NCBI GenBank assembly: GCA_031181325.1
Contig: JAPSKX010000015.1
Location: forward strand, 1 to 48,110
Direction: 5' to 3'
From: Paenibacillus sp.
Lineage (GTDB): Bacteria > Bacillota > Bacilli > Paenibacillales > YIM-B00363
Length of the DNA: 48,110 nt
The position numbers were made by a program, and so were the translations under genes. Shown piece by piece: positions 31,140 through 47,068 of the stretch. How positions within the stretch are numbered: the stretch's first letter is position 1; every line of letters starts with the position of its first letter. The notes beneath the pieces are model-generated. The model saw only the letters and a list, made by a program, of their open reading frames with translations, was not told the origin of the DNA and did no database searches.

Positions 31140-31721
31140 ATGGGCAACGCATATTGGCAAATCGGCGCGGCGATGTGCCGCACGGGCATACTGGGATACG
31201 GCGGAGGACCTTCGATCGTGCCGCTCCTCCGCTACGAAGCGGTGACGCGGTACCGGTGGTTGTCCGACGAAGAGTTCGGCGAGGTGCTCGCGATCGCGAA
31301 CGCCTTGCCGGGTCCGATCGCGACGAAGCTGGCCGCTTATCTGGGCTACCGGCAGAAAGGCGCGCTAGGCGCCCTCGTCGGTCTGCTCAGTCATATCGTG
31401 CCGACCAGCGCGGCTATGGTGCTTCTTTATGCTTTCATTTCGTTCTTCAGCACGTCCCCCGTCATCCGCGGCATGATCGCCGCCGTCGTGCCGGTCGTCG
31501 CCGTCATGCTCGGCGTCATGGCATACGAGTTCGGCGAGAAAGCCGTGAGAGGGCTCGGACTACCTTTCGGCATCGCTCTGTTCGCGCTGACGTTCTCGCT
31601 GCTCCAGCTCGTCGGGCTCCATCCGGCGATCGTAATCGCCCTCTTCCTCGGCTACGGCGCCTTCCATCATCGCGTGTCGCAGCGTTGGAGAGAGCGACGG
31701 CTCGGGAAAGGAGAAGGGTAA
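31140..31721 (+). CDS. Chromate transporter (CHR family), first half protein
   Basis: The 193-residue protein is a single CHR domain: FGYGGGPS-like motif (ILGYGGGPSIVPLLRYE), ANALPGPIATKLAAYLGYRQKG, and five or six membrane helices. Short-chain CHR proteins work as pairs with opposite topology; the partner follows four bases downstream. They export chromate, probably by mimicking sulfate. Same order as ywrB-ywrA of B. subtilis. ATG follows AGGAGC. Confidence 0.93.
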   Translation: MGNAYWQIGAAMCRTGILGYGGGPSIVPLLRYEAVTRYRWLSDEEFGEVLAIANALPGPIATKLAAYLGYRQKGALGALVGLLSHIVPTSAAMVLLYAFISFFSTSPVIRGMIAAVVPVVAVMLGVMAYEFGEKAVRGLGLPFGIALFALTFSLLQLVGLHPAIVIALFLGYGAFHHRVSQRWRERRLGKGEG

Positions 31722-31724
31722 ACG

Positions 31725-32258
31725 ATGTCCGATTGGTGGGAGTTATTTCTCGCGTTCTTCCTTGCGAACGTCTTCGGATACGGTGGAGGACCGGCCTCCA
31801 TCCCGCTGATGTACCAAGAGGTCGTGCCGAACCATGGCTGGCTTACGAGCGCCGAATTCACGAACGTGCTGGCGCTCGGCAACTCGTTGCCCGGCCCGAT
31901 CGCCACGAAGATCGCCTCTTACGTCGGCTACGACGTCTCCGGCTGGTTCGGCGTCGTCGTCGCGACGGCCGCTGCCGTCGTGCCGTCCGCCGTCGCGCTC
32001 ATCGTGCTCCTTCGTCTGCTGCAGCGCTACAAGCAATCGCCGGTCGTGAAAGGCATGACGCTCATGGTGCAGCCCGTCATCGCCGTCATGATGCTGATCG
32101 TGACATGGGAGAGCTCGGTCGAATCGGTGTTGGCGATCGGGATCCTACAGTTCGCGGGCATCGCCGCGGTCGCCTTCTACCTGATGCAGCGCCGCAAGCT
32201 CCACCCGGCGTTCGTCATTCTCGGCGCGTTCGCGTACGGAGCGGCGTTCTTATCGTAA
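31725..32258 (+). CDS. Chromate transporter (CHR family), second half protein
   Basis: The 177-residue protein is the second CHR domain: NVFGYGGGPASIPLMYQEVV, GNSLPGPIATKIASYVGYDVSG and several membrane helices. It pairs with the preceding gene as a two-protein transporter. ATG is preceded by AAAGGAGAAGGG. The Lrp protein upstream is the probable regulator; a bidirectional terminator follows. Confidence 0.93.
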   Translation: MSDWWELFLAFFLANVFGYGGGPASIPLMYQEVVPNHGWLTSAEFTNVLALGNSLPGPIATKIASYVGYDVSGWFGVVVATAAAVVPSAVALIVLLRLLQRYKQSPVVKGMTLMVQPVIAVMMLIVTWESSVESVLAIGILQFAGIAAVAFYLMQRRKLHPAFVILGAFAYGAAFLS

Positions 32259-34521: not shown

Positions 34522-34529
34522 ACGAAAAA

Positions 34530-34562
34530 CAGGGGCGGATCCTCCGACGAGGACCGCCCCTG
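34530..34562. terminator. Terminator between amidase and PhnC-like genes
   Basis: CAGGGGCGG at 34530-34538 pairs with CCGCCCCTG at 34554-34562, with an inner CCTC/GAGG stem. A-run before and weaker T-rich sequence after; shared by convergent genes. Confidence 0.75.
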
Positions 34563-34585
34563 CTTACTTATTCCGAACCGATCCG

Positions 34586-35314
34586 TCACAACAGCTTATG
34601 CCGTTCCGCGGCCGTCAACCGGCGGGCCCGGATGTCGAGCGCCACGCGGCCGTCCGAGATGCCCACGATGCGCGAAGCGTATTTCTCCGCCATCTCGATA
34701 TTTTGCAGCGCGCAGACGACGGTGACCGTCTCGCGCCGGTACAGTTCCTTAAAGCTCTCCATGATACGCTCCGCCGAATGCGGGTCAAGGTTCGACACCG
34801 GATCGTCGGCGACGATCAGCTTCGCGCCCTGCGACAACGCCCGCGCGATCAACACCCGCTGCTTCTCCCCGCCGCTCAGCTTCTCGACCTTCTGCATCGC
34901 CTTCTCGAGCAAGCCGACCTGCTCGAGGTAATCCATCGCGCGGACATGCTCTTCCTCCGAGGGCTTCCCGCCGAGCAGCTGCCGCCAGAACGAAAATTGC
35001 CGGAACCGCCCGACGACCACGTTGCGGAACGCGGACTTGCGCGGATTCAACCGATCGGTCGAGCCGATGACCGACCAATCCTTGCTGGCTTCCCACCGCG
35101 TCCACCAAGAGCTTTGCGTCAGGTTGACGCCGTTCAGCACGACGTCGCCTCCGTCCGGCTTCTCCTCGCTGACCATACAGCGCAGCAAGGTGCTCTTCCC
35201 GCTGCCGCTGGCGCCGATGATCGCGACGAAATCGCCGCGGTTCACCTCCAGGTCGATCCCCTTTAACACCGGCGTATCGTCGTAGTTTTTGACCAAGTTG
35301 TTCACGATGAGCAT
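34586..35314 (-). CDS. PhnC-like ABC ATPase with altered catalytic motifs
   Basis: The 242-residue protein resembles phosphonate-import ATPase PhnC: Walker A GASGSGKST near residue 37, FWRQLLGG in the PhnC-specific insert, signature LSGGEKQRVLIARAL. Three catalytic features differ. The Q-loop (usually FQQFNL) reads IGSTDRL; Walker B reads LIVADDPVSNLD, with Asp for the catalytic Glu; and the H-loop (usually LHQVDLA) reads LQNIEMA, with Gln for His. ATP binding may be kept while hydrolysis is weak. No PhnD or PhnE gene is in the window. ATG follows AAGGAG; the longer in-frame extension has no binding site. Confidence 0.88.
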   Translation of the reverse strand: MLIVNNLVKNYDDTPVLKGIDLEVNRGDFVAIIGASGSGKSTLLRCMVSEEKPDGGDVVLNGVNLTQSSWWTRWEASKDWSVIGSTDRLNPRKSAFRNVVVGRFRQFSFWRQLLGGKPSEEEHVRAMDYLEQVGLLEKAMQKVEKLSGGEKQRVLIARALSQGAKLIVADDPVSNLDPHSAERIMESFKELYRRETVTVVCALQNIEMAEKYASRIVGISDGRVALDIRARRLTAAERHKLL

Positions 35315-35472: not shown

Positions 35473-35757
35473 ATGTACGATAAGAACGACGAAACGCTGA
35501 TCCAACGCTTAAAGAGGTATTATGCCGACTACCGTCTGTCGGAAAACCCCGACGAGAGCTTCCGGGACGCTTGCGCCGCGCTGTCGCTGTCGGTCCTCGA
35601 CACGGTGGGAGAGCTTGCGGACCGCGAGGATTGCGCAGCGATCCGCAACGTGCTTCGGGAATATCGAGAAATTCGCTCGTCCGTATCGGGCAGCAACGAC
35701 TCGGTGAAGGAGCGGCTGGAACGGGAGCTGCGCGAGCGCGCCTCGCAGCCGGTATAG
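35473..35757 (+). CDS. Uncharacterised 94-residue charged protein
   Basis: I do not recognise this soluble protein. It starts MYDKNDETLIQRLKRYYADY, continues with a helical stretch (FRDACAALSLSVLDTVGEL) and ends in a highly charged coiled-coil-like tail (KERLERELRERASQPV). There is no membrane segment. ATG at 35473 has GAGGAGG upstream; a start at 35449 has none. A strong terminator follows, so it forms its own transcript. Confidence 0.65.
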   Translation: MYDKNDETLIQRLKRYYADYRLSENPDESFRDACAALSLSVLDTVGELADREDCAAIRNVLREYREIRSSVSGSNDSVKERLERELRERASQPV

Positions 35758-37159: not shown

Positions 37160-37192
37160 AAAAACCGACTCCCGGATCCCCGGGAATCGGTT
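37160..37192 (-). terminator. Terminator of the nine-gene sugar operon
   Basis: AACCGACTCCCGG at 37163-37175 pairs with CCGGGAATCGGTT at 37180-37192, with one wobble pair and an ATCC loop. On the minus strand it ends in five T residues and overlaps the stop codon of the last gene. Confidence 0.88.
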
Positions 37193-38162
37193 ATATGTCG
37201 CGTCGGACGGCGAACGCCTCGGCCGGATTGTCGACCGTCCAGCGGCGGATCGCGGCGGCGGAAACCCCGTACCGCGCGAGCAGCGGGAGGAACGTTTCGA
37301 TCAAGTAGGTCCAACCGATGTCGCCTCCGTACCGCTTAAGCCTGGCTCGGGTCGTGTCGAGACCGAGCAGCACGCGGTCCTCCAGCCCCCAGTCGACCAT
37401 GCGAAGCAGCAGCTCCGCCTCGTCCTCGTCCGAATGGTACTTGAACCGGCCGATCGTGTCGTACTCGAGATAGACGCCGAGCCGAGCTAGATCCCGATGC
37501 GTCTCGGGACGCTCCGTCGTGCGGTCGAGATGGCATAAAATCACATTCGAAGGCGGGACGCCCCGCTCCAAATAATAATGCGCCATCCATACCGCATCCT
37601 CGTGCGTCTCCGTATGCCCGACGATCGACGCGCCGGTCGCGATCGACGCGTCCGCCGCCGCGGCGAACCACCGCTTGTCCTCGTCCTCCATCCGCTCCCG
37701 GTCGACAGCCGTCTTGATGACGCCGGCGCGCGCCTCGAGGTAGGCAGCGGGCTTCGCCGCGTCCGTCCCCTCGTACATGCCGACGGTCAACTCATGGACG
37801 AAAACGTCTCGCAGCTCCTCCCTCGTCAGTCGCCTGATCCAATGATCCTCGGGGTAGAACGCGAGCTTATGGAACCCCGTCGACGCGACGAGATGGACGT
37901 CCGCCTCGCGGGACGCGGCGACGAGCGCGCGCTCCATGCGGCCGCAGCCGAGCGGCTGGCAGTCGACCATCGCGCGGCCGCCCGCCTCGCGGAAATCGCG
38001 CAGCTCGGCGAGCGACGCGCCGTAATCGTCGATGCGCAGCGCGGGGCTGAGCTTCGCGGGATGGCCGTCCGCGAGAAACACGTGCTCATGGCTGTGGCAG
38101 AAGCCGAGCGCCGCCTTCGGAATGTCGCCGCGGACGGTGCGGACGAATGCGGCGCCCGTCAC
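37191..38162 (-). CDS. Phosphotriesterase-like lactonase family protein
   Basis: The 323-residue protein has the metal-ligand pattern of the family: HSHEH near residue 20, the bridging Lys in GVIKTAVD near residue 150, His in VGHTETHED near 180, His in ILCHLDR near 208, and Asp in LLGLDTTR near 262. Members hydrolyse sugar lactones; a few cleave organophosphates or phosphoester bonds. In this operon it probably opens a sugar lactone made by the dehydrogenases. The GTG at 38162 overlaps the stop of the isomerase gene. It is the last gene of the operon. Confidence 0.9.
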
Positions 38163-39925
38163 TTGTACAGCGGACCGTACGCCGCGCAGGCGCGGTAATC
38201 GGCGCCTTCCGGATCTTTCGTGCCGAACATGCCCCACGCGCTCGGGCGGAATACCCGCTCCTTCGGCACGTTGTGCATGTTGACCGGGATGCGCAGGATG
38301 GACGCGAGCGTAATGAGCTCGCCGCCGATATGGCCGTAGGAGATCGCGCAATGGTTCGAGCCCCACTGCTCCATGACGTCGTACACGTCGGAGAACACCG
38401 GATCGCCCGGCACGAGATTCGGCGCGAACCATGTCGTCGGCCACGTCGGCGTCGTGCGCGCGTCTAACTTATCGTGCACATGCGCCGGCAGCTCGACGGT
38501 GAAGCCTTCCGCGATCTGCAGCACCGGCCCGAGCCCCTCGACGAGGTTGATGCGGCTCATCGTCGCCGGCATGCCGCCCTTCGTCAGGAAGTCCGTCGAA
38601 TAGCCGCCGCCGACGAATTGATCCATGTACGTCGGACGCCACGACGTCGCCTTGAGGCACGCGTCGACCTCCTCCGGCGCAATGTCCCAATGCGGCTTCA
38701 TCGCGGGCTTGCCGTCGATCTTCTGCTCGCCCGTACCGTCGAGCGCCGCCGGACCGGAGTTGATCAGATGCAGAATGCCGTTCGCGGCGGCGCCCTCCAG
38801 CGTCTCGCCGGTGACGCGCTTCACCGCTTCCGGGCTCCAGTACGTCCGCACGTCGGCGAAAACTTGCGCCGTATGCGAAATCAAGTGGTTGAACAGCATC
38901 GTGACGCCGTTCAGGTTATCGTTTTCCGTGGCGACGATGTAGGGCTCCCGAATGCCGTTCCAATCGAACGACGACGTCAAGATCGCCTCGAGGAAGTCTG
39001 CGCTCGGGAAGCGGTCCGTCCACTCGCGTTGCCCCTGGAAACCCGCCGCGATCGCGTTGTAGCCGTACGCTTCTTCCTCGAACCCCATCTCCGCCAGCTT
39101 CGGATTGCCGACCATCAGGTCGCGCACGATAAGCGCCGTCTTGACGACGAACTCCCAGTTGCGATCCTTCTGCTCGCGCGGAATCCGCATGTCTTCCGGG
39201 TTCGGGTCTTCGCCTTCGGGGCAACTCGCCTTCGTCCACGCCAACGCGCGCTCGTATTCGGCCGGGTCGTAGATGCCCTTATCGATGCGGCGCGTCACCT
39301 CCGTCATGTCGACGTAAGCGTTCTTCATGCCGAGGTACCGCTGGTAGAACGAATCGTCGACGATGCAGCCGGCGATGCCCATCGACACCGAGCCGATCGA
39401 CAGGTACGACCTTCCGCGCATCGTCGCCGCGGCGAGCGCCGCCTTGCCGAACTGCAGCAGCTTCGCCTGCACATCCCCCGGAATGCTGCCGTCGTCCATG
39501 TCCTGCACCTCGCGGCCGTAAATCTTGAACGCCGGAAGACCCTTTTGGTTATGCGCGGCGTGCAGCGCGGCGAGATAGACCGCGCCCGGCCGCTCCGTGC
39601 CGTTGAAGCCCCATACGGCGTGCGGCCATTCCGCGTTCATCTCCATCGTCTCGAGCGGGTAACACCAGCCCGCCGCGACCGTGACGACGACGCCGACGCC
39701 TTCGCGGCGGAACTTCTCCGTCGCCTTCGCCGCCTCCGGCAACCCGGAGATGGCGTCGTCCGCGACGACGCACTCGACCGGTTTCCCGTTGCCGTAACGG
39801 AGGTTCGCGCTTAGGAACGAGGCGACCTCGTTCGCGAGCCCGAGCACGACGTGGCGGGTCTCCGCCTTCACGAGCTTGCGCCGGTCGATGATCGGGCGAA
39901 TGCCGATTTTCGGATATTGGTACAT
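38159..39925 (-). CDS. fucI: L-fucose isomerase family protein
   Basis: The 588-residue protein matches L-fucose/D-arabinose isomerase (E. coli FucI, 591 residues). It has [13 protein letters not shown] and [14 protein letters not shown] in the N-terminal domain. The active-site regions are [19 protein letters not shown] near residue 300, TENDNLNG near 336 with a metal-binding Asp, and [17 protein letters not shown] near 523 with the metal-binding His. It converts an aldose with fucose-like configuration to the ketose using Mn2+. ATG follows GGGGGAGAG. No FucA aldolase gene is in the operon, so the ketose may follow a different route from classical fucose use. Confidence 0.93.
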
Positions 39926-39937
39926 GCGTCTCTCCCC

Positions 39938-40786
39938 CTATCGCAGGCCGTATTGGGCCATCTTTCCCTTAATGAACGCGACGCCCTCGCGCACGAGCGT
40001 ATCCCCGTTCGGCGCGAGCTGCCGCCACACCCACGTATTCATGTTATCGGTCACGTCGACGAACGACTCGAGCGCGGCGTAGCCGTCGTACTTTAATTCG
40101 CCGAGTGCGCGGAATAGGCCGTCCCAATCGACGAGGCCGGTCCCGGGGATGCCGCGGTCGTTTTCGCAGAGATGATAATGGATAAGGTCCGACCCGGCCC
40201 GCTTCGTCGCTTCGTAGAAGCTCTTCTCCTCGATGTTCATGTGATACGTGTCGAGATGCACCCGAATGTTCGGCTCGCCGATCATCTCCTTGAGCCGCAG
40301 CGCTTGCTCGCACGTGTTCACGAGGTACGATTCGTACCGATTGACGGGCTCGAGTCCGAGCGTGACGCCGACCCGCTGCGCGTACCGGGCCGCTTCCTTC
40401 AGCGCCGCCGCCGACCATGCCCATTCGTCCGCCGTCGGTCGCGCCTTCGCCGCCTTCACGTGCTGCGAATAGACGACGCCGGAGAAGCTCGTCGCGCCGA
40501 TCGCGTGCGTCGCGTCGATGCAATCCTTCAAGTACTGCAGCCCCTTGGCGCGGATCGCCGGGTCTTCGCTCGTAATGTCCGTGTCCCCGAGCAGCACCGT
40601 CGAGGTGACCGCTTCGAGGCCCGCCGCGTCTAGACGCGCCTTCACCGCCGCCGCGTCGAACGTGTCGAGCGTCATCAGCGGAATTTCGATGAAGTCGAGG
40701 CCGAGCCCCTTCACCCGATCGATCAGATCGAGCGTATCGTTCGTCCATTGCGAACACCAGGCGTACGCGTGTATCCCAAGCTTCAT
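39938..40786 (-). CDS. Ketose 3-epimerase-like TIM barrel protein
   Basis: The 282-residue protein belongs to the sugar phosphate isomerase/epimerase (AP endonuclease 2-like) superfamily. It keeps the four metal ligands of D-tagatose/D-psicose 3-epimerases: Glu in LGLEPVNRYE near residue 147, Asp in VHLDTYHMNIEE near 183, His in HYHLCENDRG near 209 and Glu in ALESF near 244, with the typical substrate Arg and Glu. Probable reaction: C3 epimerisation of a free ketose. ATG overlaps the stop of the preceding gene (ATGA). It would act on the product of the downstream isomerase. Confidence 0.9.
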   Translation of the reverse strand: MKLGIHAYAWCSQWTNDTLDLIDRVKGLGLDFIEIPLMTLDTFDAAAVKARLDAAGLEAVTSTVLLGDTDITSEDPAIRAKGLQYLKDCIDATHAIGATSFSGVVYSQHVKAAKARPTADEWAWSAAALKEAARYAQRVGVTLGLEPVNRYESYLVNTCEQALRLKEMIGEPNIRVHLDTYHMNIEEKSFYEATKRAGSDLIHYHLCENDRGIPGTGLVDWDGLFRALGELKYDGYAALESFVDVTDNMNTWVWRQLAPNGDTLVREGVAFIKGKMAQYGLR

Positions 40787-41733
40787 GCGTTCGTTCCCCC
40801 TTGGAAAAAGTCGACCAACGACCTCGCGGCCATCAGTCCCATATTGTCGATCGCTTGAAACGTAGAAGCGGCCGTATGCGAGCCGATTACGAGGTTGTCG
40901 AGCTCGAGCAGCTTTCTGTTCTCCGGCGGCTCCTGCTCGAATACGTCGAGACCCGCTCCCCAGATTTTATTCTGTTTCAACGCGTCGTACAAAGCGTCCT
41001 CGTCGATGAGGCCGCCGCGCGCCGTGTTGACGAGCACGGCGGTCGGCTTCATGAGCGCGAGCAGTTCCGCGCCGAACAGGTTGTGCGTCGCAGGCGTCAG
41101 CGGCAAGTGCAGAGAGATGAAGTCGGCGCTCGCGGCGAGCTCATGCAGGCTGTCGACGTATTCGACGCCTACTTCCCGCGCGAATGCTTCGTCCCGCGCC
41201 ATGTCGTAGGCGAGGATGCGCATGTCGAAGCCGCGCGCCCGCCGCGCCACGCCCTTGCCGATCATGCCCATGCCGACGAGACCGAGCGTGCGGCGGTGCA
41301 GGTCGACGCCGGTCACCTTGCCCCACTCGAGCCGTCGGCAGCCCGCGTCGATCGGCACGAGTCGTCGCGCCGCCGCCAGCAGGAGCGCGAACGCGAAGTC
41401 GGCGACCGCTTCCGCGTTGGCGCCGTTCGTCACCGTCACGCGAATCCCGCGCTCGCGGCAATAGTCCATGTCGATGTTGTCCGTGCCGACGCCGTATTTC
41501 GCAACCGCTTTCAGCCGCGGCGCCGACTCGAGCACCTCGCGGTCGAGCGGATCGACGCCGACGACGATGGCGTCGGCGTCGCGCGCCGCCTCCCGCATTT
41601 CGTCGCGCGTCAGGATGCGCCCGTGCGGGTTGCGGGCGACGTCGAAGCCGGCCCGCTCTAAGATCAGGTACGGTTCGGGGTCGTTCTTGCCGAAGGAACG
41701 CGGCGTGATAAGCACCTTCACGGTCGTCGCCAT
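40783..41733 (-). CDS. D-2-hydroxyacid dehydrogenase (phosphoglycerate dehydrogenase-like)
   Basis: The 316-residue protein shows a Rossmann motif (LGLVGMGMIGKGVARRARGF) near residue 148, the catalytic Arg in VNTARGGLIDEDAL near residue 235, the Glu in LDVFEQEPP near 264, and the catalytic His in VIGSHTAAST near 283. It reduces a 2-keto acid or oxidises a 2-hydroxy acid with NAD(P). The start at 41733 lies eight bases after the upstream stop with only a weak binding site; a much longer in-frame extension is inside the previous gene. Substrate is probably a sugar acid. Confidence 0.92.
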   Translation of the reverse strand: MATTVKVLITPRSFGKNDPEPYLILERAGFDVARNPHGRILTRDEMREAARDADAIVVGVDPLDREVLESAPRLKAVAKYGVGTDNIDMDYCRERGIRVTVTNGANAEAVADFAFALLLAAARRLVPIDAGCRRLEWGKVTGVDLHRRTLGLVGMGMIGKGVARRARGFDMRILAYDMARDEAFAREVGVEYVDSLHELAASADFISLHLPLTPATHNLFGAELLALMKPTAVLVNTARGGLIDEDALYDALKQNKIWGAGLDVFEQEPPENRKLLELDNLVIGSHTAASTFQAIDNMGLMAARSLVDFFQGGTNA

Positions 41734-41741
41734 CGCGCGCG

Positions 41742-42344
41742 TCACTTCCACTTCGGATTGTCGATCACGGCCGGCGCGCCGTCCCGCTCGACGACGATCT
41801 TGCGGAAGCCCTTCGTTTCGATGCTGCCGTAGTCGTGGCCGGCGTCGGCGCGGAACACGTAGAACGTGATCAGCGGCTCCGTCCCGACGTTGATGCTCCG
41901 ATGCGCGTATCGTCCGGGCACGTACACGGCGCGGCCCGGCGTGAAATCCTCGATCCGCACGTCGCCTTCGGGGTTTTCCATCAGCATGTACCCCTTGCCG
42001 CCGATGCAATAGTACACTTCCGCCGTATCTAGAATCGTATGGAAATGGCCCTTCGTCATGAAATATTCGTCTCCGACCTTGCCGGGGTAGACGATGCTCG
42101 TGCCGAACGCCAGATTGCCCTCGGCCTCGGGCACGCCGAGATCGTAAAATTCGTACAGCAGCGTATCATCCTTCTCCAGCATCGCGCGGAACGCCGCGTC
42201 GTCGGCGTACATGCCGGCCATCTTGGACAGATGGCGTCGAATCGAAGGCCTTGTATCGGACAAGCCGTTGTTCAGGCTGAAGTATACGCCGAACGGCGTC
42301 AGCGCCGCCGGCGCTTGGCCGGACGTAGGGTTATGCGTACTCAT
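41742..42344 (-). CDS. Cupin-type phosphoglucose isomerase
   Basis: The 200-residue protein matches the cupin PGI family: FMTKGHFHTILDTAEVYYCIGGKGYML with the metal-binding His, His and Glu, and GRAVYVPGRYAHRSINVG with the fourth His. Such enzymes, best known from archaea, interconvert glucose 6-phosphate and fructose 6-phosphate and need a divalent metal. In a sugar operon it may isomerise another aldose or ketose phosphate. ATG follows GAGGAGG. Confidence 0.92.
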   Translation of the reverse strand: MSTHNPTSGQAPAALTPFGVYFSLNNGLSDTRPSIRRHLSKMAGMYADDAAFRAMLEKDDTLLYEFYDLGVPEAEGNLAFGTSIVYPGKVGDEYFMTKGHFHTILDTAEVYYCIGGKGYMLMENPEGDVRIEDFTPGRAVYVPGRYAHRSINVGTEPLITFYVFRADAGHDYGSIETKGFRKIVVERDGAPAVIDNPKWK

Positions 42345-42370
42345 AGCGGCTCCTCCTCATTCGGATTCTC

Positions 42371-43312
42371 TTATTTCCGGGTCTCCGCCGCGATGCGCTC
42401 GCAAGCCGCGAAGCGCTCCGGCGTCATCTCGAGATCGAACACTTCGGCGATGACCTGCGTCCAGCCGTGCAGGAAATAGATCCAACCGTCTTCCACATGC
42501 AAGCCGCGCGCAGCCTTCTGCCGGTTCGCCTGGTGCAGGAAGTCGAGCTCGCCGCGGTAATTCAGCTCCCAGACGAGCGCGCCTTCCGGGAACGCCGCGT
42601 CGTCCGTCAGCGGCGAGCCGGGGCGGTCCTTGCCGAGCCCCGTCGCGTTGACGACGAGAGAGCCCGGCGCGAGCCTCTCGAGCACCGCGTCGTTATCCGC
42701 CGGTTCCGGGCACAGCGCATATTCGAACGCCGCAGGCGTATCGATGCGCCCGAGCAGCGTCTCCGCCGAGCGCAGGCGCGGCTCGCTGCGGTTGCTCACA
42801 ATGATCTTCGACGGAATATCCCCGTTGCGCGCCGGATCGGTGAGCCAGGACGAGATCGCAAGCGCGCTGCCGCCTGCGCCCATGAGGAACGCCTCGCCGC
42901 CGCCGGCCCAATGGCCCTTCGGGATGAACGCTTCCATCGCGAGGCCGCTCGTGATCGGATCCTTCGCATGGCCGATCAACCGGCCGTCGCGCTTGGAGAT
43001 CGAGGACACCTCCTCGAACGCCTCCGCGTACGCGTCGAACGCGTCGAAGACGTGCCGTGCCGCATGAAACAGGTCGATCTTGTGCGTCGTGACGAGCGCG
43101 CCCAAGGACAGCGGATCGTTCTTAATAAACTCTACGCACTCGATGTATTTCGCCGGATCCGCATGAATCTCGATATCGATGCCTCTAATGACCGCGTCCT
43201 TCAGCCCGAGCGCCTCCGCCCACAGCGGGAACAGCTTCATAATCGAAGATTGGCCGGTCGTCACGCCGATGAAGTACATCGTCGGTCGATCCGCCGGTTC
43301 GGGTAATCTCAT
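42371..43312 (-). CDS. Shikimate dehydrogenase-like protein in a catabolic context
   Basis: The 313-residue protein has the shikimate dehydrogenase fold signals: GALVTTHKIDLF with the catalytic Lys, AKDPITSG with the catalytic Asp, and the NADP-binding LMGAGGSALAIS with NRSEPR after it. Differences: the Ser-x-Ser substrate pair is replaced (TTGQSSIM), and the usual Asn-Thr after the Lys motif reads Ser-Ser (EVSSIS). It is longer than AroE (about 270). In this sugar operon a role in aromatic synthesis is unlikely; I infer oxidation or reduction of a sugar acid or polyol. ATG follows AAGGAGG. Confidence 0.85.
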   Translation of the reverse strand: MRLPEPADRPTMYFIGVTTGQSSIMKLFPLWAEALGLKDAVIRGIDIEIHADPAKYIECVEFIKNDPLSLGALVTTHKIDLFHAARHVFDAFDAYAEAFEEVSSISKRDGRLIGHAKDPITSGLAMEAFIPKGHWAGGGEAFLMGAGGSALAISSWLTDPARNGDIPSKIIVSNRSEPRLRSAETLLGRIDTPAAFEYALCPEPADNDAVLERLAPGSLVVNATGLGKDRPGSPLTDDAAFPEGALVWELNYRGELDFLHQANRQKAARGLHVEDGWIYFLHGWTQVIAEVFDLEMTPERFAACERIAAETRK

Positions 43313-43346
43313 GAACGGGATTCCTCCTTCTTTCGCTTGCTTTCGT

Positions 43347-43367
43347 CCGGGGGAGCCTAACCCCCGG
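43347..43367. other. Intra-operon hairpin between kinase and shikimate-dehydrogenase-like genes
   Basis: CCGGGGG at 43347-43353 pairs perfectly with CCCCCGG at 43361-43367 around a seven-base loop, five bases after the kinase stop. It lacks a T-run, so it may process or stabilise mRNA rather than terminate. Confidence 0.55.
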
Positions 43368-43372
43368 CGCCG

Positions 43373-44911
43373 TTATCCAAGCTCCTTCAACAGGCTTTGC
43401 AGCTCGGCGACCTTCTCGAGCAGCGCCGGGTACCGGCGTTTCGGCGATGCATACGCGAGCTGCGCCTCCGGGTCGGGCTCGAACCTCTCCCGCACGGCAA
43501 CGAGCCGATCCGCCTCCGCCGCGAAGTCGCCGTGCCAGCCGAGCGCGAAGCCTGCGATGAGCAGATTGCCGAGATGGCCCGTGTCCGCCTCTCGCAGCGT
43601 CGCGTACGGCACGCCCAGCACGTTCGCCTTGATCCGGTTGAACGCCGCGCCCTTCGCCCCGCCGCCGACGACCCGCACCTCGTCGAACCGGACATTCGGC
43701 AGCGCGTCCGTCAGGATATCCAAGTAAATCTGATATTCGTAAGCGATCGACTCCAAGATCGACCGATACATCGCGTAGTTGTCGTGCGACCAGTTGAGGC
43801 CGACCCAAGCGCCGCGCAGCAGCGGATTGTTCGGGCATACGCGCCCGCCGAAGTGCGGGACGAAATGCAGCCCGTCGCAGCCCGGCGCCCAACGCGCCGC
43901 GCCGCGGTTCAGCGTTTCGAAGTCCGGTTCCCCGCCGTCCGGGCCGTTCGCGAGCTGCTCCCGGAACCAAGCGATGCATTGTCCGCCGCCGTTAATGTAG
44001 GCGAGCGGCGCCCAGAGGCCGGGAACGACCGAACGCGCGAACATGAGCGTCTTCCGCTCCGTGTCCGGCTTATAGGCGTCTACGCAGCAGGCAAGCACCG
44101 ACGCGGTGCCCGCGACGTCGAACAGCATGCCGGGCCGCACGATGCCGGCGCCGAGCGTCGAGGCGGCCGTGTCGCCGCAGCCGGCGAGCACGGGCGTGCC
44201 TTCGCGCAGTCCGCACGCGGCGGCCCATTCGCCCGTCATGCCGCCGACGCGGTCCCACGGGCTGACGATGCGCGGCAGCTTCGACGGCTCGAGAGCCAAA
44301 TCGCGAAGGAGCGGCGCCGACCAGCCGCCGGACGCCGCGTCCGCGAAGCCGGAGAAATGCAGATGCGTATAATCTATATACGCTTCGTCCGCGGTCGCGC
44401 CCGCGAGCCGTCCGGCGACGTACGCCGTCGGAACGACGAATTTCGAGATCGCGCGATATGCTTCCGGCCGTTCATGCTTCCACCACAACGTCTTCGGTCC
44501 GTGCGCGTACGTGATCGGGCAGCCGGTCTCGGCGATGACCGCCGCTTCGCCGAGCGCGCGAATGCGCTCGAACTGCGACTCGCAGCGCGTGTCGAGCCAG
44601 GAATCGTAAGGCGTCGCGGCCTCCCCGCCGGCGTCGATGCCCAGAACCCCGGCCATCTGCCCGCTGAGCGCCACAGCCTCGACGGCGGCTTCCGGCCTCG
44701 CGGCCGTGCAGGCGGCGAGCGCTTGCACGCATTCGCGCAGCATGTCGTCCGGGCGCTGCTCGACTTCTCCGCCGCTGCGCCGAATTAAATTCGACGGAAC
44801 GAACGCCGACGCCAGGACGTTTCCGTCCGGCGTCAAGAGCGCCGCCTTCGTGCCTTGCGTGCCGATGTCGACGCTCGCCACGCAGAGAATCGTACCGTTC
44901 CGCTTGCTCAC
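43373..44911 (-). CDS. FGGY-family carbohydrate kinase
   Basis: The 512-residue protein begins with VASVDIGTQGTKAALLTPDG (phosphate loop 1), has ALSGQMAGVLGIDAGGEA near residue 85 and DSWLDTRC near 108, GCGDTAASTLGAGIV near 260 with the catalytic Asp, and the C-terminal GGGAKGAAFNRIKANVLG adenosine site. It is of the xylulokinase/fuculokinase type that phosphorylates a ketose or polyol with ATP. GTG at 44911 lies eight bases after GAGG. It would act on the ketose from the isomerase and epimerase of the same operon. Confidence 0.92.
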   Translation of the reverse strand: MSKRNGTILCVASVDIGTQGTKAALLTPDGNVLASAFVPSNLIRRSGGEVEQRPDDMLRECVQALAACTAARPEAAVEAVALSGQMAGVLGIDAGGEAATPYDSWLDTRCESQFERIRALGEAAVIAETGCPITYAHGPKTLWWKHERPEAYRAISKFVVPTAYVAGRLAGATADEAYIDYTHLHFSGFADAASGGWSAPLLRDLALEPSKLPRIVSPWDRVGGMTGEWAAACGLREGTPVLAGCGDTAASTLGAGIVRPGMLFDVAGTASVLACCVDAYKPDTERKTLMFARSVVPGLWAPLAYINGGGQCIAWFREQLANGPDGGEPDFETLNRGAARWAPGCDGLHFVPHFGGRVCPNNPLLRGAWVGLNWSHDNYAMYRSILESIAYEYQIYLDILTDALPNVRFDEVRVVGGGAKGAAFNRIKANVLGVPYATLREADTGHLGNLLIAGFALGWHGDFAAEADRLVAVRERFEPDPEAQLAYASPKRRYPALLEKVAELQSLLKELG

Positions 44912-44944
44912 GTTCCCCACCTCGTCTTCTTATTCCGCGATTGT

Positions 44945-45988
44945 TTACTCGAACGCGACGACCGTCTTCATGCCGCTTCCGCTCGAGGCGTTCTCCAGCG
45001 CCTCCTCGAATCGGCTCAGCGGGTACCGCGACGTGACCAGGCTGCCGACGTCGAGGAGACCCGCGGAGATCATCCGCAGCGTGCTGCGGAAATGTTCATT
45101 GTTCGCCTTCGTCGATCCCGTCAGCAGGATTTGCTTGTAGTGCACCGCGTTCGTATTGATCGGCACGATCTGTCGGTCCTTCGGCAGTCCGCCGAAGAAG
45201 TTGATCCTGCCGTTCATGGCCGTCAGCTCGACGGCCAGCTGCTGCGCCTCCGGCGACGGATTCGCCGTCACCGCGACGTCGACGCCCTCCCCGTTCGTCA
45301 GGTCGAGAATCGTCTCCCGCAGCGCCTCCGCCTCGATCGTCACGAAGCTGCCGTCGATCCGCTTGGCCCAATCGAGCCGGCCCTTGCTCCGGTTCGCGAC
45401 GAAGACGCGCGCCGCGCCGGACAGCTTCGCCATCATGGCGTACATGATGCCGATCGGCCCCGCGCCGATAATGAGCACGTCGTCGCCGACCGCGACCGGG
45501 CATAGCTGCAGCCCGTTATAGACGCAGGAGAGCGGCTCGTTGATCGCGGCGGCGTCGAAGCCGACGTGATCCGGCAGCACGAATACGTTGCCGGAGCGCA
45601 CCGCGGCGGCGGGCACCCGCACGTATTCGGCGAAGCCGCCGTCGAGCTGCACGCCGAGCGCCCGGTAATTCGCGCACAGATGCGCGTCGCCCCGGCCGCA
45701 GTGCCGGCAGACGCCGCAGCCCATATTCGGCGCGATCGCGACGCGCTGCCCTTCCCGATACGCGTCGACGCGCCGGCCGACGGCGGCGACGACGCCGCTG
45801 ATTTCATGGCCGAGCACCCGAGGATGGTCCTCGTCCATGCCCGGCAGACCGTTGCCGATAATACGCAAGTCCGTTCCGCAAATGCCGACGCTCTTCACTT
45901 TCACGAGCAGCTCGTCTTCTCCGATGTCCGGCACGGGGACGTCTCGCAGTTCGATCTTCCGAATCCCTGTCATCTGGGCCGCTAGCAT
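44945..45988 (-). CDS. Zinc-dependent alcohol dehydrogenase family protein
   Basis: The 347-residue protein has the medium-chain pattern: catalytic-zinc Cys in VGICGTDLRI, GHEISGVV with His, the four-Cys structural zinc site GCGVCRHCGRGDAHLC near residue 95, and the Rossmann motif VLIIGAGPIGIMYAMMAKL near 172. It resembles sorbitol/threonine dehydrogenases and probably oxidises a sugar or polyol secondary alcohol with NAD(P). The ATG at 45988 is preferred because AAGGAG is seven bases upstream; the earlier ATG is too close. Confidence 0.93.
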   Translation of the reverse strand: MLAAQMTGIRKIELRDVPVPDIGEDELLVKVKSVGICGTDLRIIGNGLPGMDEDHPRVLGHEISGVVAAVGRRVDAYREGQRVAIAPNMGCGVCRHCGRGDAHLCANYRALGVQLDGGFAEYVRVPAAAVRSGNVFVLPDHVGFDAAAINEPLSCVYNGLQLCPVAVGDDVLIIGAGPIGIMYAMMAKLSGAARVFVANRSKGRLDWAKRIDGSFVTIEAEALRETILDLTNGEGVDVAVTANPSPEAQQLAVELTAMNGRINFFGGLPKDRQIVPINTNAVHYKQILLTGSTKANNEHFRSTLRMISAGLLDVGSLVTSRYPLSRFEEALENASSGSGMKTVVAFE

Positions 45989-46010
45989 GGACATGCTCCT
46001 TCCGCTGTAG

Positions 46011-47033
46011 TTATGACAAGCGTACGACGGACGCCTCCCGGATCGAGCGGTTGCCCGCTTCGACCACCTTCACCGCCATCATCCCGTCGTAGCCCGTCAC
46101 CTGCGGCGATCGCTGCTCCAAGATGCTTAAAATAAATTCCGTATCCTCCGCCAGGTACGCGTCCTTATACAGATGCCTCCAACTGTTCATGAAGGGCCTC
46201 GTAATTTCTTTGTTCCGTCGCGCGGTGACGACCGTCTTCTCATGCAGCTGTCCGATGAAGATGACGCCCTCCGTCCCGAGAATCTCCACCCGGGAATCGT
46301 ACCCGTACTGGACGGCCAACGCTCCGTCGATCACGCCTTGGCGGCCGTTCTCGAAGCGGCCCGTCAGCAACACGTTGTCGTAGAAATCGGGGTATTGTAC
46401 CGCCGCTTCCGGCGAGCGGTAGTTGCCCGCGATCGCGTACACCTCGCGGAACTCCGAGCCGGCGAACCAGCGCAGCGTATCGATGTCGTGGCTGTTCACC
46501 TCGGCGAGCGGTCCGTTGCTCTTCTTCAAGTCGTACATCCAAGGCTGCGGCGTGCTCGGCCCGCGGGTAAGCGAGCGGATGAGCACGAGATCGCCGATCT
46601 CGCCGCTGTCGAGCCTTGCCTTCGCTTCCTGGAAGCTGGCGTCGAAGCGCCGCATGAACGCGATCTGCAGGTTTACCTTCGCGTCGTTCGCCGCCTCGAT
46701 CATCGCTTCGCATTCCTCGGCGTTCATCGCCATCGGCTTCTCGCACAGCACGTGCTTCCCGGCGCGCGCCGCGTCGACGACGATGTCCCGATGATAGATC
46801 GTCGGCGTCACCACGACGACCGCGTCGATGCCGTCGTTCCGCAGCGCGTCGCGATAGTCGGCGTACCACGTCTCGACGCCGAGCTCCTTGGCGGCTTGTT
46901 CCGCCGCCGTTCGGTTCGGGTCGACGACCGCAACGAGCCTCGCGTACGGGACGCTCCTGCGGAAGTTATTCGCGTGGATCAGACCCGCGCGTCCCGCGCC
47001 GATGACCGCTACGTTAATGTCTTTGACACCCAT
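46011..47033 (-). CDS. Gfo/Idh/MocA family oxidoreductase, first gene of sugar operon
   Basis: The 340-residue protein has a normal Rossmann motif (VAVIGAGRAGLIHANNF), LCEKPMAMNAEECEAM near residue 100, and AEVNSHDIDTLRWFAG with the Asp and His pair near residue 180. It resembles the myo-inositol 2-dehydrogenase branch. As the leader gene under the DeoR-controlled promoter it probably oxidises the entering sugar or a derivative. ATG at 47033 is placed seven bases after AAGGGG. Confidence 0.92.
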   Translation of the reverse strand: MGVKDINVAVIGAGRAGLIHANNFRRSVPYARLVAVVDPNRTAAEQAAKELGVETWYADYRDALRNDGIDAVVVVTPTIYHRDIVVDAARAGKHVLCEKPMAMNAEECEAMIEAANDAKVNLQIAFMRRFDASFQEAKARLDSGEIGDLVLIRSLTRGPSTPQPWMYDLKKSNGPLAEVNSHDIDTLRWFAGSEFREVYAIAGNYRSPEAAVQYPDFYDNVLLTGRFENGRQGVIDGALAVQYGYDSRVEILGTEGVIFIGQLHEKTVVTARRNKEITRPFMNSWRHLYKDAYLAEDTEFILSILEQRSPQVTGYDGMMAVKVVEAGNRSIREASVVRLS

Positions 47034-47068
47034 GGACAATCCCCTTCTGTCCGGCCGAAATCGATCCG

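Follow-up and report, generated by a model that had tools for sequence, protein, structure and literature searches.

The gene and its surroundings

The window, by which we mean the whole analysed stretch of 48,110 nucleotides from a genome of Paenibacillus sp., carries on its minus strand the gene of an orphan ABC ATPase, whose predicted limits proved correct. The protein belongs to the ABC ATPase superfamily: it has the Walker A motif, the Walker B aspartate and the LSGG signature, it matches PF00005 with 110 bits, and its AlphaFold2 model (pLDDT 89) has the canonical NBD fold. The closest solved folds returned by Foldseek for this model include ArtP, MetN, MJ0796 and FtsE.

Table 1. Position, strand and supporting evidence of the features at the locus.
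Feature	Position	Strand	Evidence or remark
Rho-independent terminator, just downstream of the ATPase gene	34527..34565	-	fold -32.6 kcal/mol, z -7.9, then UUUUU
Orphan ABC ATPase gene, 242 aa	34586..35314	-	translated ORF; ATG start at 35314
H-loop ALQNIEMA; switch His replaced by Gln204	34688..34711	-	alignment with own-genome PhnC
D-loop SNLD, intact	34784..34795	-	Asp177 in 72/80 orthologues
Walker B KLIVADDP; Asp170 intact, catalytic Glu replaced by Asp171	34799..34822	-	alignment with own-genome PhnC
ABC signature LSGGEKQR, intact	34856..34879	-	Ser147 and Gly149 each in 80/80 orthologues
Q-loop WSVIGSTDRLNP; Gln replaced by Ser85	35042..35077	-	alignment with own-genome PhnC
Walker A GASGSGKST (Lys40), intact	35189..35215	-	Lys40 in 80/80 orthologues
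Divergent 94-aa ORF, sharing its upstream region with the ATPase gene	35473..35757	+	tblastn; no Pfam match

Residue positions were assigned by comparison with the canonical PhnC of the same genome (L172, on contig C270). In this pairwise alignment, the Q-loop of PhnC reads GMIFQS and that of the orphan ATPase SVIGST; ADEP faces ADDP at the catalytic Glu, and NIHHVEMA faces ALQNIEMA at the switch His. The original prediction, that Walker A and LSGGEKQR are intact while these three residues are altered, is thus confirmed by the alignment. The site is degenerate in the sense that the catalytic Glu and the switch His are both replaced in the window's protein.

The ATPase gene has no close neighbour in its own direction. 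Given the strong terminator that it possesses, the convergent amidase gene on one side and the divergent ORF on the other, it is probably transcribed alone; the inverted repeat of the terminator also sits after the amidase gene. Among the genomes examined with tblastn, the divergent ORF is kept only in two near relatives, at 89% and 65%, and we reject it as a partner because it is present in so few. The neighbours that could be identified in the window are unrelated: two chromate-transport halves, a nitroreductase, the amidase and a fucose-type sugar cluster. The chromate transporter genes, each of half size, lie side by side at 31140-32258. The sugar cluster, at 37191-47039 on the minus strand, encodes a phosphotriesterase-family protein, an L-fucose isomerase, a xylose-isomerase-like barrel, a 2-hydroxyacid dehydrogenase, an FGGY kinase, an alcohol dehydrogenase and a Gfo/Idh/MocA oxidoreductase. 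Neither PhnD nor PhnE is among the matches listed on the window's contig (C218), and the phn loci of the genome are found on contigs C270 and C295, which bears out the claim that no such partner lies near.

A family beside PhnC

The best NCBIfam match of the protein is PhnC (TIGR02315), at 217 bits, below the equivalog cut-off of 266.1 bits. A quick tree with open forks, built from 80 orthologues and 20 true PhnCs from the order, sets the orthologues apart as one group with an SH-aLRT support of 100. The orphan ATPase derives from the line of phosphonate-transporter ATPases and is related to PhnC; judged by these sequence comparisons, it is not a misplaced PhnC, and the "PhnC-like" of the original prediction stands for a sequence neighbour only. 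The two proteins share the fold and a similar helical subdomain. They differ in the signature, which is LSGGE in the orphan family (Glu150 in 80/80 orthologues) and LSGGQ in PhnC, in a C-terminal RRLTxxE motif followed by a shorter tail in the orphan family, in the lability of its catalytic residues, and in having no PhnD or PhnE gene adjoining. A literature search for an orphan PhnC-like ATPase in Paenibacillus found nothing specific.

The gene also persists independently of the phn system. Among 31 relatives that have the orphan ATPase, 12 show neither PhnC nor PhnE above the cut-off, absence of PhnE meaning here that no match exceeds the curated cut-off in genomes of which some are incomplete; two other genomes have PhnE and lack the orthologue. 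Its score below the cut-off, its separate clade, the lack of linked phn genes and its retention in genomes without PhnC or PhnE lead us to reject the idea that it is a component of PhnCDE.

The orphan ATPase is near-universal in the order Paenibacillales and restricted to it: an orthologue, nearly always in single copy, is found in 282 of the 296 genomes of the order (match at 1e-45), and no match at 1e-52 appears among roughly 360 genomes from other Bacilli. The two nearest loci that bear a name belong to Paenibacillus. Within the genus, the ratio dN/dS between the window gene and near relatives that all share the three changes is about 0.11, and the degenerate form is hence functional. That the catalytic residues are absent in this genus could also be read as the mark of a gene decaying without function. 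Such decay is highly improbable, given this ratio, the lack of stops in the listed orthologues and the near-universal retention across the order, and we reject the pseudogene reading: throughout the genus the frame is intact and under purifying selection, and the gene is retained across the order.

Binding residues and catalytic residues

The states of the key residues were surveyed in the 80 distinct orthologues, a chosen sample weighted to nearer relatives. Residues that bind ATP are invariant: Lys40, Asp170, Ser147 and Gly149 are each present in 80/80. The catalytic positions behave otherwise. At the Q-loop position we find Glu in 55 sequences, Gln in 18, Ser in 4, Pro in 2 and Thr in 1, so that Gln is missing in 62 of the 80. 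The catalytic position has Glu in 72 and Asp, its only replacement, in 8: all six genomes of the window's genus, plus L009 and L104. The switch position has His in 42, a gap of one residue in 16, Gln in 14, Asn in 4, Ser in 2 and Pro in 2. The fewest changes that account for these states are 1 for the presence or absence of Gln in the Q-loop, 3 for the Glu and 10 for the His, counts that depend on the tree. Outside these three positions, the Asp of the D-loop is changed in 8 of the 80. One orthologue, L039:1495-2220, has the signature LSHGEQQR and a Glu at the end of its D-loop.

The full set of changes seen in the window's protein is shared by all six genomes of the genus, the other five having the same Asp, the same Gln, and a residue other than Gln in the Q-loop (S, T or P). 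It is not typical of the family as a whole, in which Glu mostly persists (72/80) and His does so in about half (42/80), although the Q-loop Gln persists in only 18/80. Chance or sequencing error is excluded by these five other genomes, together with the low dN/dS.

Two controls were drawn from the same order. All 20 PhnCs keep Gln, Glu and His at a mean identity of 57%, compared with 53% in the orphan family, and divergence alone thus does not explain the lability of the latter. All 29 SufCs also keep the three residues, though they are more alike, with a mean identity of 81%. A relaxed need for hydrolysis would explain why the catalytic residues are labile.

Are the substitutions simply tolerated, in an ordinary active ATPase of the cytosol that hydrolyses at a near-normal rate? 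The changes from E to D and from H to Q or N are conservative, and in 41 of the 80 orthologues the sole departure from the canonical state at the three positions is the Glu of the Q-loop. This is nonetheless quite unlikely, as the His has changed at least 10 times, including to a gap of one residue in 16 sequences, and nothing of the kind is seen in the PhnCs and SufCs of the order.

Possible partners and proposed mechanism

No permease is linked to the gene, and PhnE is not required for its retention, as would be the case for a soluble, non-transport ABC protein, though a permease encoded in trans may still be served by it. Known members of this class are SufC and the PhnK and PhnL of C-P lyase, which have no membrane domains and work in non-transport complexes, and their common likeness with the orphan ATPase is that they are soluble. 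The orphan family was not found among the PhnK, PhnL or SufC matches, and the SufCs of the order, unlike it, keep their three residues. PhnK and PhnL are phn-type ABC proteins that serve complexes other than transporters, and their catalytic Glu is required in vivo (PMC9947105).

At the active site there is a likeness to heterodimeric exporters. In the degenerate sites of TAP (ABCB2/B3) and TM287/288, as in the orphan ATPase, the Walker B Glu is replaced along with an altered H-loop, and the window's genus, with Asp at the catalytic position and Gln at the switch, has a combination of the kind known from TAP. Contrary to these exporters, the orphan ATPase has no membrane domain, an intact signature and no known heterodimer partner.

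A permease encoded in trans may be the binding partner, since the alignment with PhnC shows a similar helical subdomain. The protein would then be a transport subunit sitting on a permease whose gene lies elsewhere, paired there with a canonical ATPase (PhnC, for instance, or some other NBD); as in TAP or TM287/288, one site would be degenerate and the other canonical. Its signature and D-loop are intact, so that the partner's site would be canonical, and the genome has very many ABC permeases, with 150 matches to PF00528. Shared importer ATPases of the MsmX type, whose orphan genes serve permeases in trans, offer the same genomic picture; they are expected to retain canonical catalytic residues. 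We consider such a subunit unlikely, because 12 genomes keep the gene without PhnC or PhnE over the cut-off, and no permease family was found to be common to the neighbourhoods of the orthologues, where genes were sorted into groups by clustering of their sequences and some of them were identified by family search.

These neighbourhoods vary between families, with one firm exception. In seven of the listed loci of that group, f10, an FG-GAP lipoprotein gene follows the ATPase gene after 8-170 bases, and where the cluster is displayed, genes of a response regulator and a histidine kinase come next; L108:4535-8792 is a tight cluster of this form, headed by the ABC ATPase. In two further loci, L125 and L126, an additional ORF separates the ATPase from the lipoprotein, and these are the only two sampled members of f10 without the gap in the H-loop. 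The lipoprotein and its two-component system are rejected as a general partner: they belong to group f10 only, and the window's genus lacks this lipoprotein.

The best reading, to which we would give an even chance, is that of an ATP-binding switch without permease, slow to hydrolyse and with a TAP-like degenerate site. The stand-alone protein, related to PhnC and with no permease fused or adjoining, would act as a dimer clamp driven by ATP. A pair of molecules would shut around two ATPs by means of Walker A and the signature, and slow hydrolysis would make the closed dimer long-lived. Whether the clamp is closed or open would govern a partner in the cytosol or membrane, encoded at another locus, rather than drive phosphonate import. 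Dimerisation, slow turnover and the role as a switch are what we infer from the pattern of conservation. The switch is supported by the invariance of the binding residues, set against the loss of Gln in 62, of His in 38 and of Glu in 8 of the 80 sequences, and by the 12 genomes that keep the gene without PhnC or PhnE over the cut-off. To this extent the family, in which no shared permease is seen, agrees with the proposal of an ATPase that binds ATP, hydrolyses it slowly, and perhaps acts in regulation or together with a partner outside transport.

Published work bears on both sides. Sites with Asp for Glu still hydrolyse, much more slowly; loss of the Walker B Glu often accompanies a change of the H-loop, as in ABCB2/B3; and a degenerate site can retain a structural role in holding ATP (PMC7756269, a review). 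Against a slow switch count the often conservative nature of the substitutes, with Asp replacing Glu and Gln or Asn replacing His, and the second site of MRP1, NBS2, where changes of H to Q or N leave transport wild-type-like (PMC7756269). Moreover, slow hydrolysis cannot be the defining trait of the family, since hydrolysis may be normal in the half of the orthologues that retain both Glu and His. We propose, tentatively and with more doubt than confidence, an order-wide family in which ATP binding and dimer closure are needed and fast hydrolysis is not, leading to repeated loss of catalytic residues: a switch that senses ATP and that, in group f10, is connected to the lipoprotein and the two-component system.

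It is usual to regard ABC ATPases as transport motors and to name them after the nearest transporter, and a near-universal gene of a large bacterial order is here at risk of being labelled a phosphonate transport ATPase. The conservation pattern of the family suggests that binding weighs more than turnover, and its natural series of orthologues (Glu/His, Glu/Gln, Glu/gap and Asp/Gln) makes the contribution of each residue directly testable outside a transporter.
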